From assembly GCF_002286985.1 (NCBI RefSeq), contig NZ_NSKC01000009.1, positions 1 through 64,000 of the forward strand: 64,000 nt of DNA. Direction: 5' to 3'. Numbering within the stretch: the stretch's first letter is position 1; the number at the start of each line of letters is the position of its first letter. Below are positions 25,696 to 64,000 of this stretch, piece after piece. Below the pieces are notes generated by a model. It saw nothing but the letters and a program-made list of their open reading frames with translations, ran no database searches and was not told the DNA's origin. The position numbers were made by a program, and so were the translations under genes. Origin of the DNA: Halorubrum salipaludis (GTDB lineage: Archaea; Halobacteriota; Halobacteria; Halobacteriales; Haloferacaceae).

Positions 25696-26142
25696 GGAGT
25701 GAGTCTTGCAGATCGGTCGTGGCGAGATGGTATCTAAACAGCCGTGAGCGGAATCGACGACCACTTATAAAAACGGCGCGGTGGCGCGTGCCGCCGAGCG
25801 CCCCTCGGGCGCGAGGTGCACGCGCGAGGGAGTCAGTCGCCGGAGCGAAGCGACGGCGACTGACGAGGCTGGGGAGGGATGAGGTGCTGTGCGGTTGCGG
25901 TGGGGTGGGACTCAAAGGGGCAGTCGCCGGCGGCGGAGCCGCCGGCTGCCAGAGGCGCGAAGCGCCTCGCTGCCGCGAGGACGAAGCACGGCGACGCAAG
26001 CACTGGAAGGAGCGAGCGATGCGAGCGACTGAAGCGCGCAGCGAGCCGCGCGAGTCCTCGCAGCTGGGGCTTTGCAGGCCTTCACCGCAACACCGTCGAT
26101 CACCTATAAACACCCACCAGCACACCACAATTAGACTTATAA
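25696..26142 (-). repeat. Structured intergenic repeat, copy B
   Basis: Copy B occupies most of the gap between dnaG and the ATP-grasp gene and reads on the minus strand. From its 5' end: TTATAAG at 26136-26142, a second box at 26103-26110, CAAAGCCCCAGCTGC at 26060-26075, then perfect hairpins with 3-base loops inside the first helix. The linker GGGTGGGACTCAAAGGGGC (plus-strand view) is at 25904-25922. Helix 2 is 25832-25842/25854-25864 (11 bp). Helix 3 is 25785-25791/25818-25824 with inner stem 25798-25803/25807-25812. The terminal box, CTGCAAGACTCACTCC on its own strand, lies at 25696-25711. The bases from 25573 to 25695 hold nothing I can name. Confidence 0.85.
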
Positions 26143-33600: not shown

Positions 33601-34512
33601 ATGGCACCCGCCGAAGACGACATCTCGATCGAGGAGAAGCGCGTGTACGCCGGGACGGCGGGCCGCACCGACGCCTACGTCGCCACCGAGAGCGGCGTCG
33701 TCCGGGTGGCGCTCTCGGCCGACAAGATCGGCGCGTTCGACATGGTCGCGCGCGACCCCGCCCGCGACGCCGCGGTCCTCCCGCGGCGAGACGCCCCGGA
33801 CCTGCTCGGCGTCGCGACCCCGGACGGGCTCCGCGTCGCGCCCGTCGGCGACGACCTCGCGTTCGAAGCGGTCGACGCCGGCTCCGTCGGGTCGGAACCA
33901 ATCGCCGCGGTCGGCGTCCACGACGGCGCGTTCCTCGTCGCGGGCGACGACGGCCGGATCGACCGTCTCGAAGTCGGCGATGGGGGCACCGATTCGGTCG
34001 TGACCGCGGTCGGAGACGTCTCGGAACCGCGCGCGGTCGACGGCCCCCTCGTCGCGGCCGCGGACGGGGTCCACCGGGTCGTCGAGGGCGACGGCGTCGG
34101 CGACGGCCCCGAACTCGCCGCGGTCGGCCTTGACGACGCCCGCGACGCCGCGGGGACCGGGATGCCCCTCGCGGCGACCGCGGCCGGGGTCTACTGGCTC
34201 GGCAACGGGTGGATGACGGCGCTCTCGGGCGACGCGACCGCGGTCGCCGCCGACGGCGACGATCACGCGATGGCGGTCGTCGACGGCGACCTGCTCGTCC
34301 ACGGTGGGGACGACGCCGAGTGGGGGACCGAGTCGTGGGCCGCGGCGGAGCTCCCGGTCGACGAGGAGCCGGTCGCGCTCGGCTACGGTCCCGGCGTGTC
34401 GGTGGCCGTCACCGACGCCGGCACGCTCTGCGTCGACGCCGGCGACGGGTGGCGGCACCAAGTCGTCGGGGTTCGAGGAGTCGCCGGCGTCGCGCTCGCG
34501 GTCGTGGAGTGA
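33601..34512 (+). CDS. Beta-propeller-like protein (HVO_0234 type)
   Basis: A 303-residue protein made of repeated short strands with Gly/Asp turns: RVYAGTAGRTDAYVATESGVVRVAL, HDGAFLVAGDDGRIDRLEVG, VDGPLVAAADGVHRVVEG, TAAGVYWLGNG, VVDGDLLVHGGDD. This fits a 5-6-blade propeller; from memory a haloarchaeal family named after HVO_0234 looks like this. Function is unknown; a protein-protein scaffold is likely. The ATG at 33601 follows a Shine-Dalgarno-poor region, so a leaderless or short leader is likely. Confidence 0.65.
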   Translation: MAPAEDDISIEEKRVYAGTAGRTDAYVATESGVVRVALSADKIGAFDMVARDPARDAAVLPRRDAPDLLGVATPDGLRVAPVGDDLAFEAVDAGSVGSEPIAAVGVHDGAFLVAGDDGRIDRLEVGDGGTDSVVTAVGDVSEPRAVDGPLVAAADGVHRVVEGDGVGDGPELAAVGLDDARDAAGTGMPLAATAAGVYWLGNGWMTALSGDATAVAADGDDHAMAVVDGDLLVHGGDDAEWGTESWAAAELPVDEEPVALGYGPGVSVAVTDAGTLCVDAGDGWRHQVVGVRGVAGVALAVVE

Positions 34513-34541
34513 CGAGATACGAAGTAGCACCTCGGTTCGAT

Positions 34542-34883
34542 TTATAAGCAGTTACCGGCAGATCGGCGGTGAACAACGCCAAATTTCCGACGGATCGCTT
34601 ATAAATAGCTGACAGTGGATCGACAGTGAACACGTCCAAAGCCCCAGCCGCTCGGTTATAAGTGGCTGACAGTGGATCGACAGTGAGCACGTCCAAAGCC
34701 CCAGCCGCTCGCTTATAAATGGCTGACAGTGGATCGACAGTGAACACGTCCAAAGCCCCAGCCGCTCGGTTATAAGTGGCTGACAGCGGATCGACAGTGA
34801 ACACGTCCAAAGCCCCAGCCGCTCGCTTATAAATAGCTGACAGTGGATCGACAGTGAACACGTCCAAAGCCCCAGCCGCGAGG
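34542..34883 (+). repeat. Six tandem 57-bp TTATAA units
   Basis: Units start at 34542, 34599, 34656, 34713, 34770 and 34827, each exactly 57 bp. The first is diverged; the next five are near-identical. Each opens with TTATAARTRGC and, 38 bases after its first base, carries CAAAGCCCCAGCCGC, the 5' strand of helix 1 of the structured element. TTATAA is a strong archaeal TATA form, so each unit looks like a promoter plus the first bases of the RNA. Confidence 0.9.
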
Positions 34884-35130
34884 ACTCGCGCGGCTCGATG
34901 CGCTCCTCGACCGCTCACTCCGTTCGCGGTCTGCGGTGCTTTCGTCGCCGTGCTTCGTCCTCGCGGCTGCCCCTTTGAGTCCCACCCGCCCGCACCGCAA
35001 CCGCACCTCACGCCTCCCCAGCCTCGTCGGCGGCTCCCGTCGGTCGCCGCCGACTCCCTCGCACGCGCTCCTCACGGCCGCCGATGGCGGCCGCTCGGAG
35101 GCGCGCGCCACCGCCCTGATCGCTTATAAA
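34542..35130 (+). repeat. Structured intergenic repeat, copy C (with promoter-like array)
   Basis: The best-preserved copy. After the 57-bp array, helix 1 is exact: CAAAG 34865-34869 pairs with CTTTG 34973-34977. A symmetric internal loop follows (CCCC 34870-34873 against GCCC 34969-34972), then 12 bp (34874-34885 with 34957-34968). The linker GAGTCCCACCC and the core CCTCACGCCTCCCCAGCCTC follow, then helix 2 (GTCGGCGGC/GCCGCCGAC) and helix 3 with a GGCCGCC-GAT-GGCGGCC hairpin, then GCCACCGC and a TTATAA at 35124-35129. It fills the gap between two genes; long frames across it are artefacts. Confidence 0.9.
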
Positions 35131-35162: not shown

Positions 35163-36113
35163 CTACGCGCTCGGCAGGTCGATCTCGTCGCCGTCGGCGT
35201 AGACGGTCGGGTTCCGGAGGATCCCGTCGAGGTGGACCGGGGCGTCGGTCTCGCCGCCGATGCCGGCGTTGTCGCCGATCGCGATGTGGACCGTGCCGCC
35301 GGCCTTCTCGTCTAAAAGGACGGAGCCGACGAGCTCGTCGACGCCGACGTTGGTCCCGATTCCCAGCTCCGCGAGGTTGTACGCGGCGTCACCGACGGAC
35401 TCCGCGGCGGTCTCGAGCTCCTCGCGGACCGCGTCGTCGCCGACGGACGTGACGAGCCCGTCCTCGACCTCGAACGTGAGGGTCTGGCCCTCGTCGAGCA
35501 GCCCGTGGGGCATCATCGTCCCGTCGACCACGTAGGTGCCGGTCGCTGTCTCGGGCGCGACGAACACCTCGCCGGCGGGGAGGTTCGAGAAGTCGCCGGG
35601 CTCGTGGACCATTCCCGTGTCGGCGAGCCACTCGCGGTCGCCGATGCCGAAGACGATGTCGGTGCCAGCGGGCGAGGTCACCCGGATCTCGTCGGCGTCG
35701 CCGACCTGCGCGAGCACGTCGTCGCAGGCGGCGTCGATCGCGGCGTAGTCGGCGTCGAGCCCGGTCGTGAACACGTCCTCCGTGATCCCCGGCAGGGTCG
35801 CGCCGCGCGCGCCGGCCTCGCAGGCGTTCCCGCGGGCGCGGGTGTGACTCAGGCTCTTCGTCGTCGGCGCGAGGAAGGCGTCGCTCTCGGCCATCGCCGC
35901 CGCGACCGGCGCGGGCGGCTCGGTCCCGTGCTGGTCGGCCGGCGGATACCGGAGGATCGTCGCGTCGTCCGTCACGGCGCTCGCGGCCTCGTAGAGCGCC
36001 TCCCCGATTCGCTCGCGCTCGTCGTCGGTGACGACGACCACTGACTCGTCCGGCGCGACGCGCAGGCACTGCTCGACGGCGGTCTCGGCGGCGTCCGCAA
36101 GCTCGCTCGACAT
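35163..36113 (-). CDS. Aminopeptidase, M29-like (AmpS/leucyl aminopeptidase T)
   Basis: A 316-residue protein. It has the late M29-like metal block HIAIGDNAGIGGETDAPVHLDGIL, with His and Asp/Glu ligands. It also has SLSHTRARGNACEAGARGATLPGITEDVF and TDIVFGIGDREWLADTG. Some haloarchaeal members are annotated as 2,5-dihydroxypyridine-dioxygenase-like; I prefer aminopeptidase with moderate certainty. The ATG at 36111-36113 avoids an arginine-rich, non-conserved upstream extension. Confidence 0.75.
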   Translation of the reverse strand: MSSELADAAETAVEQCLRVAPDESVVVVTDDERERIGEALYEAASAVTDDATILRYPPADQHGTEPPAPVAAAMAESDAFLAPTTKSLSHTRARGNACEAGARGATLPGITEDVFTTGLDADYAAIDAACDDVLAQVGDADEIRVTSPAGTDIVFGIGDREWLADTGMVHEPGDFSNLPAGEVFVAPETATGTYVVDGTMMPHGLLDEGQTLTFEVEDGLVTSVGDDAVREELETAAESVGDAAYNLAELGIGTNVGVDELVGSVLLDEKAGGTVHIAIGDNAGIGGETDAPVHLDGILRNPTVYADGDEIDLPSA

Positions 36114-36291
36114 GCCCGCCGATCCGCGACGACGGGCGTTAGTCCTTCCCATCGACGACTCATTTACTCTGTTTCGAAATTCAGTTTTGTCTCGAAGGCG
36201 CGCGAATTAACCGACCGATTACTCTCGGCGTAGTTAATTTCTTCTTGCTTCTCTCGAAAACATTATGCTGTTCCCCGAGCGACCGACACCT

Positions 36292-39683: not shown

Positions 39684-40076
39684 GGCGCGCGCCTTCGAGC
39701 GCCCCCCGGGCGCGAGAAGCGCGTGCGAGGGACGCCGCGAGCGCGGAGCGCGTGCGAGGGACGCCGCGAGCGCGGAGCGCGTGCGAGGGACGCCGCGAGC
39801 GCGGAGCGCGAGCGGCGAGGCTGGGGAGGCGTGAGGATGCGGTGCTGTTGCGGTCGGTGGGACTCAAAGGGGCAGCCGCGAGGCGGCCAGAGGCGACTCA
39901 AGCACCGCAGCGAGTGAGCGAAAGCGAACGAGCGAGGAGCACAGCGAGCGTCTGGCCGCCTCGCGGCTGGGGCTTTGGCGGTGTCCGTGTCGATCGTCGA
40001 TTTATAAGCACTGTACAGCCGAGCGGCTGGGGCTTTGGCGACGTTCGCCGTCGATCCGCTGTTGGGTACTTATAAG
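39684..40076 (-). repeat. Structured intergenic repeat, copy D
   Basis: It fills the gap before the peroxiredoxin gene and reads on the minus strand. Two TTATAA-CAAAGCCCCAG units lead (boxes at 40069-40076 and 40000-40006). Helix 1 has CAAAG/CTTTG (39973-39977 with 39865-39869), a symmetric 4-base internal loop, and 18 perfect base pairs (39951-39968 with 39874-39891). The core GAGGCTGGGGAGGCGTGAGG (plus view) is at 39817-39836. Helix 2 is distorted by a 29-bp tandem expansion. Helix 3 has GCGCCC-CCC-GGGCGC at 39698-39712. The 3' extension seen in copies A, B and E is absent. Confidence 0.85.
39721..39807. repeat. Three tandem 29-bp units inside copy D
   Basis: The 29-bp unit beginning GCGTGCGAGGGACGCCGCGA occurs at 39721, 39750 and 39779, with identical sequence. 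It duplicates the helix 2/helix 3 junction of the structured element. Confidence 0.9.
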
Positions 40077-49580: not shown

Positions 49581-50145
49581 TTTATAAGGGGAGGAGCGGT
49601 GTTGCTGTCGGTTGTTTATAAGTGATCGACGGCACACCGGTGAGGATCTGCAAAGCCCCAGTCGCTGTGGGCGGCGCACGCTCGCTGTCGTTCGAAAGGC
49701 GCAAAGCGCCTTTCGTGATGTCGTCAGAACGCTTTGCGTTCTGACTGCTAGCCAGAAATCGGTGATTTCTGGCGATGACGAGAGAGCTACGCTCTCTCGA
49801 ACCACGCGCTTCAGTCGGTCGCTAGCGCTCCCTCCTTCCAGTGCTTCCGTCGCCTGCGCCGCCCACAGCGACTGCCCCTTTGAACCCCACCCACAACCGC
49901 AGGCCGCGGCCTCACGCCTCCCCAGCCTCGTCGCTCGCTGCTCGCGGCTTCGCCGCTCGCCATCGAGGTGCTCGCGCTGCTCGCACCTCGCACCGCTCGC
50001 GACTCCCTCGCGCGTGCTGACTCGCGGCCTATCGGCCGCTCGCAGGCACGCGCCACCGCAACAGCCGTTTATAAGGAATCGTCGCTGCCGCTCACGGCTC
50101 GCTTAAATACTGCTTCGCTGCCGCCAATCCGCAAGACCCACTCCC
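49581..50145 (+). repeat. Structured intergenic repeat, copy E
   Basis: It fills almost all of the 778-base gap before the DUF6498-like gene. Two TTTATAAG boxes (49581-49588, 49615-49622) precede CAAAG 49651-49655. Helix 1 pairs 49660-49678 with 49855-49873 (19 perfect bp), with the CCCC/GCCC internal loop and CAAAG/CTTTG clamp. Inside it are four perfect hairpins: 49693-49715, 49723-49745, 49751-49773 and 49780-49798. The core is at 49912-49930. Helix 2 carries further hairpins. Helix 3 closes near 49999-50055. The 3' extension, TTTATAAG, TTAAATAC then CGCAAGACCCACTCCC, ends at 50145. Confidence 0.9.
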
Positions 50146-60843: not shown

Positions 60844-60952
60844 ACGCGTGTATAATAAGCGCACGTTCATAAGAGCTGGCGAAAGCGGGGATCGGCGCGT
60901 CGGCCGAGGAGTCGCGGGCACCACTCCGCCGACGTGCCCTCTCCGGCGCCCT

Positions 60953-61041
60953 CCGCCGGCAACTCTCCTCGGCGCCCTTTCCGGCCCTCTCCGCCGGCAA
61001 CTCTCCTCGGCGCCCTTTCCGGCCCTCTCCGCCGGCCCTCT
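60953..61041. repeat. 38-bp tandem repeat between divergent genes
   Basis: Two full copies (60953 and 60991) of a 38-bp unit beginning CCGCCGGCAACTCTCCTCGG, then partial copies at 61029 and 61042. It lies in the promoter interval between the FAD protein and the subtilase gene. Confidence 0.9.
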
Positions 61042-61092
61042 CCGCCGGCAACCCTCCGGCGGCGCTCTCTGCCGGCGTCCATCCGGCCGAAG

Positions 61093-63939: not shown

Positions 63940-64000
63940 CCGCCCTTAGCTCAGCCTGGTAGAGCAGTCGACTGTAGATCGACTTGTCCCCCGTTCAATT
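63940..64000 (+). tRNA. tRNA-Tyr (GUA), cut by the window end
   Basis: CCGCCCTTAGCTCAG starts the acceptor/D arm; the D loop has CCTGGTAGAGC. The anticodon stem GTCGA/TCGAC encloses the loop CTGTAGA, with anticodon GTA at 63974-63976, reading Tyr codons. The variable region and TPsiC start (GTTCAATT) follow; the 3' acceptor strand lies outside the window. No intron is present. Confidence 0.92.

Follow-up and report, generated by a model that had tools for sequence, protein, structure and literature searches.

The six TTATAA boxes between positions 34542 and 34883 head a folded element of a dispersed repeat family in Halorubrum. Its copies carry front-end cassettes whose TATA boxes are better conserved than the surrounding sequence and whose number and type vary by locus and species. 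With about an even chance, to judge from the sequence, the array is the locally amplified, promoter-like front end of this dispersed, structured, MITE-like repeat, and its boxes start an RNA. The window, the whole stretch of DNA analysed, comprises 64 kb (C27:1-64000) of the 3.5-Mb genome of Halorubrum salipaludis.

The 57-bp array and the folded element

Array and element lie between a + strand gene that ends at 34512 and a convergent - strand gene that ends at 35163. The latter, the anchor gene (35163-36152, - strand), encodes a putative aminopeptidase-like protein whose closest named relatives are found in Halorubrum species, with at most 94% protein identity. The boxes start at 34542, 34599, 34656, 34713, 34770 and 34827, exactly 57 bp apart, as listed in the first-pass annotation. 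The motif CAAAGCCCCAGCCGC stands 38 bp past each of boxes 2-6, in agreement with the earlier description, which fails for unit 1, where this position is occupied by CAAATTTCCGACGGA. TRF called a 57-bp array of 5.0 copies with a 93% match and zero indels, and CAAAGCCCCAGCCGC, allowing two mismatches, was matched nine times in the window compared with 0.10 matches expected from shuffles.

Unit 1 (34542-34598, + strand) is an old, diverged cassette consisting of TTATAA and the degenerate motif; together with its flank it is also present in the near relative G030. It differs from units 2-6 at 19-21 of the 53 bases compared and has nevertheless retained the length of 57 bp, as had been noted before. 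Unit alignment delimits the other + strand cassettes: unit 2 (34599-34655), which ends in CAAAGCCCCAGCCGC followed by TCGG, units 3 (34656-34712), 4 (34713-34769) and 5 (34770-34826), each 57 bp with a TATA box, and the proximal unit 6 (34827-34879), whose motif forms the 5' arm of helix 1 according to the fold. Since units 2-6 differ pairwise at 0-3 of their first 53 bases, and unit 1 by far more, the units are not six exact copies as had been claimed. Units 2 and 6 are identical over 53 bases, units 2 and 4 differ at one position and units 3 and 5 at two, a pattern of two-unit blocks that suggests unequal recombination or slippage. Two further tandem arrays occur in the window, at 60936-61087 and 39718-39814 (38-bp and 29-bp units), and a tRNA identified by Rfam at 63940-64000 is cut by the window end.

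The GC-rich folded element follows directly downstream. Helix 1 and its inner stem extend from 34865 to 34977 on the + strand, with the 5' arm (34865-34885) pairing with 34957-34977, so that the last unit does run into the stem, as had been stated. The conserved core CCTCACRCCTCCCCARCCTCG (35006-35026, + strand), recognised by copy alignment and core search, is followed by helix 2, a variable hairpin (35026-35054, + strand) defined by fold and copy alignment, and by the helix 3 region with the element end GCCACCGC (35068-35114, + strand), whose limits were set by eye. The same order was obtained by aligning 28 copies from the own genome. The anatomy of the copies also places a palindromic TTATAA, without strand, just past the element end (35124-35129). 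Rfam covariance models yielded no family at threshold over array and element.

Pairing was assessed in 127 core places, 113 of which have a recognised helix-1 arm. In basal helix 1 of 108 copies, 1646 of 1728 cells are Watson-Crick pairs, compared with a mean of 1432 and a maximum of 1462 when the 3' arms were re-dealt among the copies; these pairs are not independent events because the copies share ancestry. Several positions show Watson-Crick pairs of three or four kinds (CG 72, TA 18 and GC 13 at pair 15). Base pairing is thus kept in the element, whether in an RNA or in a palindrome of the DNA itself. Template-switch repair is one way to maintain a DNA palindrome.

Cassettes and copies in the genome and the genus

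Searches with up to three mismatches revealed 135 core places in the own genome, compared with one for the reversed control. With up to two mismatches the core was found in all 35 genus genomes examined (16-183 places per genome) and in 3 of 24 genomes outside the genus, with 42, 1 and 1 places; the 42 belong to G041, a member of another family of the same order, and most genomes outside the genus have none. Six plasmid records contain partial matches to the element. There was no exact core match in viral contigs and no blastn match of the element to a phage collection, and a description of the repeat family was not found in the open-licence literature. Contigs C27 and C23 both open with an element copy at 53-233, and the two copies are equally identical to the query; it looks as though the assembly was broken at the repeats.

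The anatomy of 107 own-genome copies revealed one to five front-end cassettes of several types, 54-72 bp in length, with one or two cassettes in most copies. The types differ in sequence and length and all share the terminal 15-mer: upstream of helix 1 the cassettes end in CAAAGCCCCAGCCGC in most copies, and within arrays the next cassette mostly opens with TCGG or TCGC straight after it. Among motif spacings of 40-100 bp in the own genome, 57 bp occurs in 36 cases at 25 loci; the remaining 35 spacings are 54, 56, 60, 61, 63, 66, 69 and 72 bp. A mixed array at C26:72700 has one spacing of 57 bp followed by two of 72 bp. Number, type and period of the cassettes vary freely. Spacings from 54 to 72 bp, together with a 58-bp unit in an array of the genome G065, give no support to the constraint on the period that had been proposed. 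Repeated units or boxes had also been claimed for other window copies, which mostly holds: two units are present near 39836, with a spacing of 60 bp, and two boxes near 49910, and near 25884 there is one exact TTATAA, the second being a TTTATAG variant recognised by eye.

Periods on a 3-bp ladder (54, 57, 60, 63, 66, 69, 72) account for 48 of 51 locus-level cases, and for 23 of 26 when 57 is omitted, without a sign of coding; shared ancestry of the types may reduce these to fewer events. A coding function had been considered because most periods are divisible by 3 and the array is crossed by a reverse ORF of 200 aa (34409-35011). It was rejected because conservation by codon phase is flat (0.81, 0.80, 0.80) and every frame is interrupted in some of the cassettes (the best is open in 50 of 68).

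Measured back from the 15-mer, the nearest TTATAA is 38, 35, 30, 33, 32 or 41 bp away at 124 of 193 motif places, and at 46 of the 193 there is none within 130 bp. In 57-bp cassettes picked regardless of TATA (n=36), the major base accounts for 94% at the six TATA positions versus 77% elsewhere. Of 101 copies, 84 have a TATA box (exact or with one mismatch) ahead of the proximal motif, compared with 10 of 856 control windows; the other 17 copies lack a proximal TATA-like box. Copies with multiple motifs keep the box only slightly better at proximal (36/43) than at distal positions (50/66).

The anchor protein is encoded in all 52 genus genomes. At 20 of the 30 loci read, the own included, an element in the same orientation occurs within 400 bp of the anchor; three of the ten loci without it (L212, L216, L221) are cut by contig ends. 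In a named set, of which 38 of 65 loci were examined and which overlaps the genus set in species, an element meeting the same definition was found in 13 of 30 Halorubrum and in none of 8 others; L129, L133 and L141 provide less than 200 bp of flank each, and L141 is nonetheless counted among the 13. Most orthologous loci have a single motif. G065 has an array of its own at this locus, with five near-identical units of 57 bp, one of 58 bp, which differ from window units 2-6 at 13-17 positions and have a different junction. G030 has the flank and unit 1 in common with the window but carries a single cassette of another type. The first-pass annotation had named a unit number that varies freely and has no effect as evidence against its interpretation; the first half of this is observed, since number and type of units differ between species at the locus. 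Of the 52 genus genomes, 31 contain the junction CCCCAGYCGCTCGNTTATAA, and counts across the set range from 0 to 67 per genome. In G065 there are 67 exact type-I junctions, of which several follow one another at 57-bp intervals; many genus members contain none.

The units were also considered as scars of excised elements, an appealing idea because a similar junction occurs in H. halophilum, which lacks the element. It was dropped because the 3' flanks of the locus do not clearly match the sequence past the upstream motifs, a weak comparison in that the 3'-end finder picked wrong ends in many rows.

One subfamily displays properties of a mobile element. Its terminal inverted repeats, GATCGATNGCGGGAGTGNGTAT, were found at 64 places with up to three mismatches (control 0); they were not seen at the window copy. 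TATA boxes adjoin the inverted ends, and deletion derivatives occur (L186, L187). At two subfamily loci, examined in 14 genomes each from 52 with a flank match, a family element lies nearby in 2 of 14 genomes at one locus and in 5 of 14 at the other, the own included, with L228, L232 and L247 cut by contig ends. In the other carriers the element is oriented the opposite way, a hint that the family has inserted into these spacers more than once. At one spacer (L245, L246, L250), in several species, the element starts a few bases from the apparent stop codon of the upstream gene. In the subfamily flanks inspected, no target site duplication was recognised by eye, and no autonomous partner or transposase with the same ends was found in the own genome or in plasmids.

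Promoter function and its alternatives

In halovirus HF2, 58-bp intergenic repeats were tested as promoters with a TATA box from -26, and in repeat IR4 changes of the BRE had no effect, in contrast to changes of the TATA box and the start region (PMC8707807). Since most TATA boxes of the family lie 30-41 bp before CAAAGCCCCAGCCGC, a start 26-27 bp past the box would fall just before helix 1; we infer that the RNAs of every cassette type would start at most about 15 nt upstream of helix 1. Each 57-bp unit would then consist of a TATA box, about 32 bp and the first 15 bases of helix 1, and the TATA conservation fits such a unit of promoter plus first RNA bases. Promoter function is suggested by the conservation and spacing of the boxes and by the HF2 precedent. 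Arguing against it is the BRE, for which CGAAA is given as a proposed haloarchaeal consensus (PMC4983044): no CGAAA-like sequence is present upstream of the boxes, where CCGCTCGC or CCGCTCGG is found instead. A sigma-70 scan, which is not designed for archaea, gave no matches. The earlier proposal of amplified promoters is thus favoured by the TATA spacing and by the better TATA conservation, but not by the BRE, and the conserved unit number that it implied is not observed. The front end acts like a modular, promoter-like unit that is duplicated in tandem and exchanged. In the proposed mechanism, each TATA box would be a core promoter whose RNA begins shortly before helix 1, and the array would grow when CAAAGCCCCAGCCGC copies recombine unequally with each other or slip, in part by two units at a time. 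It would provide several start points for one structured RNA, and the number of units would be tolerated rather than fixed by selection.

The same front-end direct repeats might slip and recombine as a neutral minisatellite, a possible but less likely explanation. TATA would then be subterminal sequence of a mobile element that starts no RNA and is either needed for transposition or simply inherited. The free variation in cassette number, type and length agrees with neutrality, as do the absence of the BRE consensus given in PMC4983044 and the TATA boxes near the 3' end of the element and by the inverted ends of one subfamily. A neutral sequence would not be expected to keep TATA better than its surroundings across loci, nor to hold TATA and helix 1, in all cassette types, at a distance that suits initiation. 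The palindromic TTATAA gives no direction, and base-pair changes do not tell which strand is the RNA; both observations count against the promoter array, as do the motif places and copies that lack a TATA-like box and the small advantage of proximal over distal boxes. In an unlikely scenario, the functional RNA would be formed from the other strand, driven back through the body by the palindromic TTATAA past the 3' end; the array would then lie at the 3' end of the RNA. Among the 92 copies whose end was recognised, 58 have an exact TTATAA within 26 nt after it. The reverse strand has the more stable fold for helix 1 in 102 of 107 copies, a difference that may reflect mere strand composition. 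Wobble pairs in helix 1 are scarce on both strands (GU 14, AC 34), those of its upper stem favour the + strand (54 GU vs 20 AC), and the G-U and A-C strand counts disagree between helices. The helix 3 counts, which favour the other strand, are unreliable and were left out because the alignment is probably shifted by a bulge.

Boxes and repeats could also form an array of binding sites, without starts, for a regulator or chromatin protein, which is rather improbable. Repeated blocks at a regular distance would suit it, but the period can be anything from 54 to 72 bp depending on the locus, and one or two cassettes are the rule among the copies. Binding of a factor in phase, as had been proposed, gains no support from these varying periods or from a unit whose 57 bp do not add up to full helical turns. 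That the array is a promoter of the neighbouring gene is hardly credible. Three of the 107 copies lie at the edges of the DNA read; not one of the 104 scored sits within a called gene, and by the orientation of the flanking genes 51 are convergent, 24 ++, 18 -- and 11 divergent, so that a downstream gene in the same sense exists at 35 of 104 (++ 24, -+ 11). The window baseline of 45 spacers of at least 40 bp (12 convergent, 13 divergent, 20 codirectional) is small, includes spacers that hold elements and relies on gene calls from a basic codon-usage script. Among copies with at least three motifs, 9 of 14 are convergent, no clear departure from the rest. This preference for convergent spacers makes it unlikely that the boxes serve neighbouring genes, which are convergent here as well, and the folded body separates the array from the next gene. 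Termination of transcription by a hairpin is reported for Haloferax volcanii, with 59% at one tested motif (PMC7237163), and the element body could act as a terminator between convergent genes.

If the promoter array is real, it would show how a dispersed archaeal repeat keeps and multiplies its promoter. A single genome would then contain copies of the same element with anything from one to five or more promoter units, a natural gradation from which one RNA-seq experiment could reveal what promoter number does. A further-reaching, speculative and less likely idea is a modular promoter on a mobile archaeal non-coding element: interchangeable TATA cassettes, with no more than the RNA's first 15 bases in common, would be swapped between copies and multiplied in tandem, and each insertion would have its own promoter dose.

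Comparison with known systems

The HF2 class I intergenic repeats (58 bp; PMC8707807) are likewise haloarchaeal, nearly the same length and equipped with a TATA box. Their promoter activity and start sites were measured. They are dispersed, single promoters of viral genes, in contrast to tandem units that head a folded element. With MITEs the family shares many short non-coding copies, deletion derivatives, insertion differences between species and, in one subfamily, terminal inverted repeats. It differs by its conserved folded body; the target duplication (by eye) and the partner transposase were not found. REP-like palindromic repeats also occur in many GC-rich palindromic intergenic copies, but the element of Halorubrum is about 250 bp long and has several stems and promoter-like cassettes. 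The tandem rRNA promoters of haloarchaea are repeated promoter blocks ahead of a structured RNA. Unlike them, the array precedes no rRNA gene, varies in unit number and forms part of a dispersed repeat.
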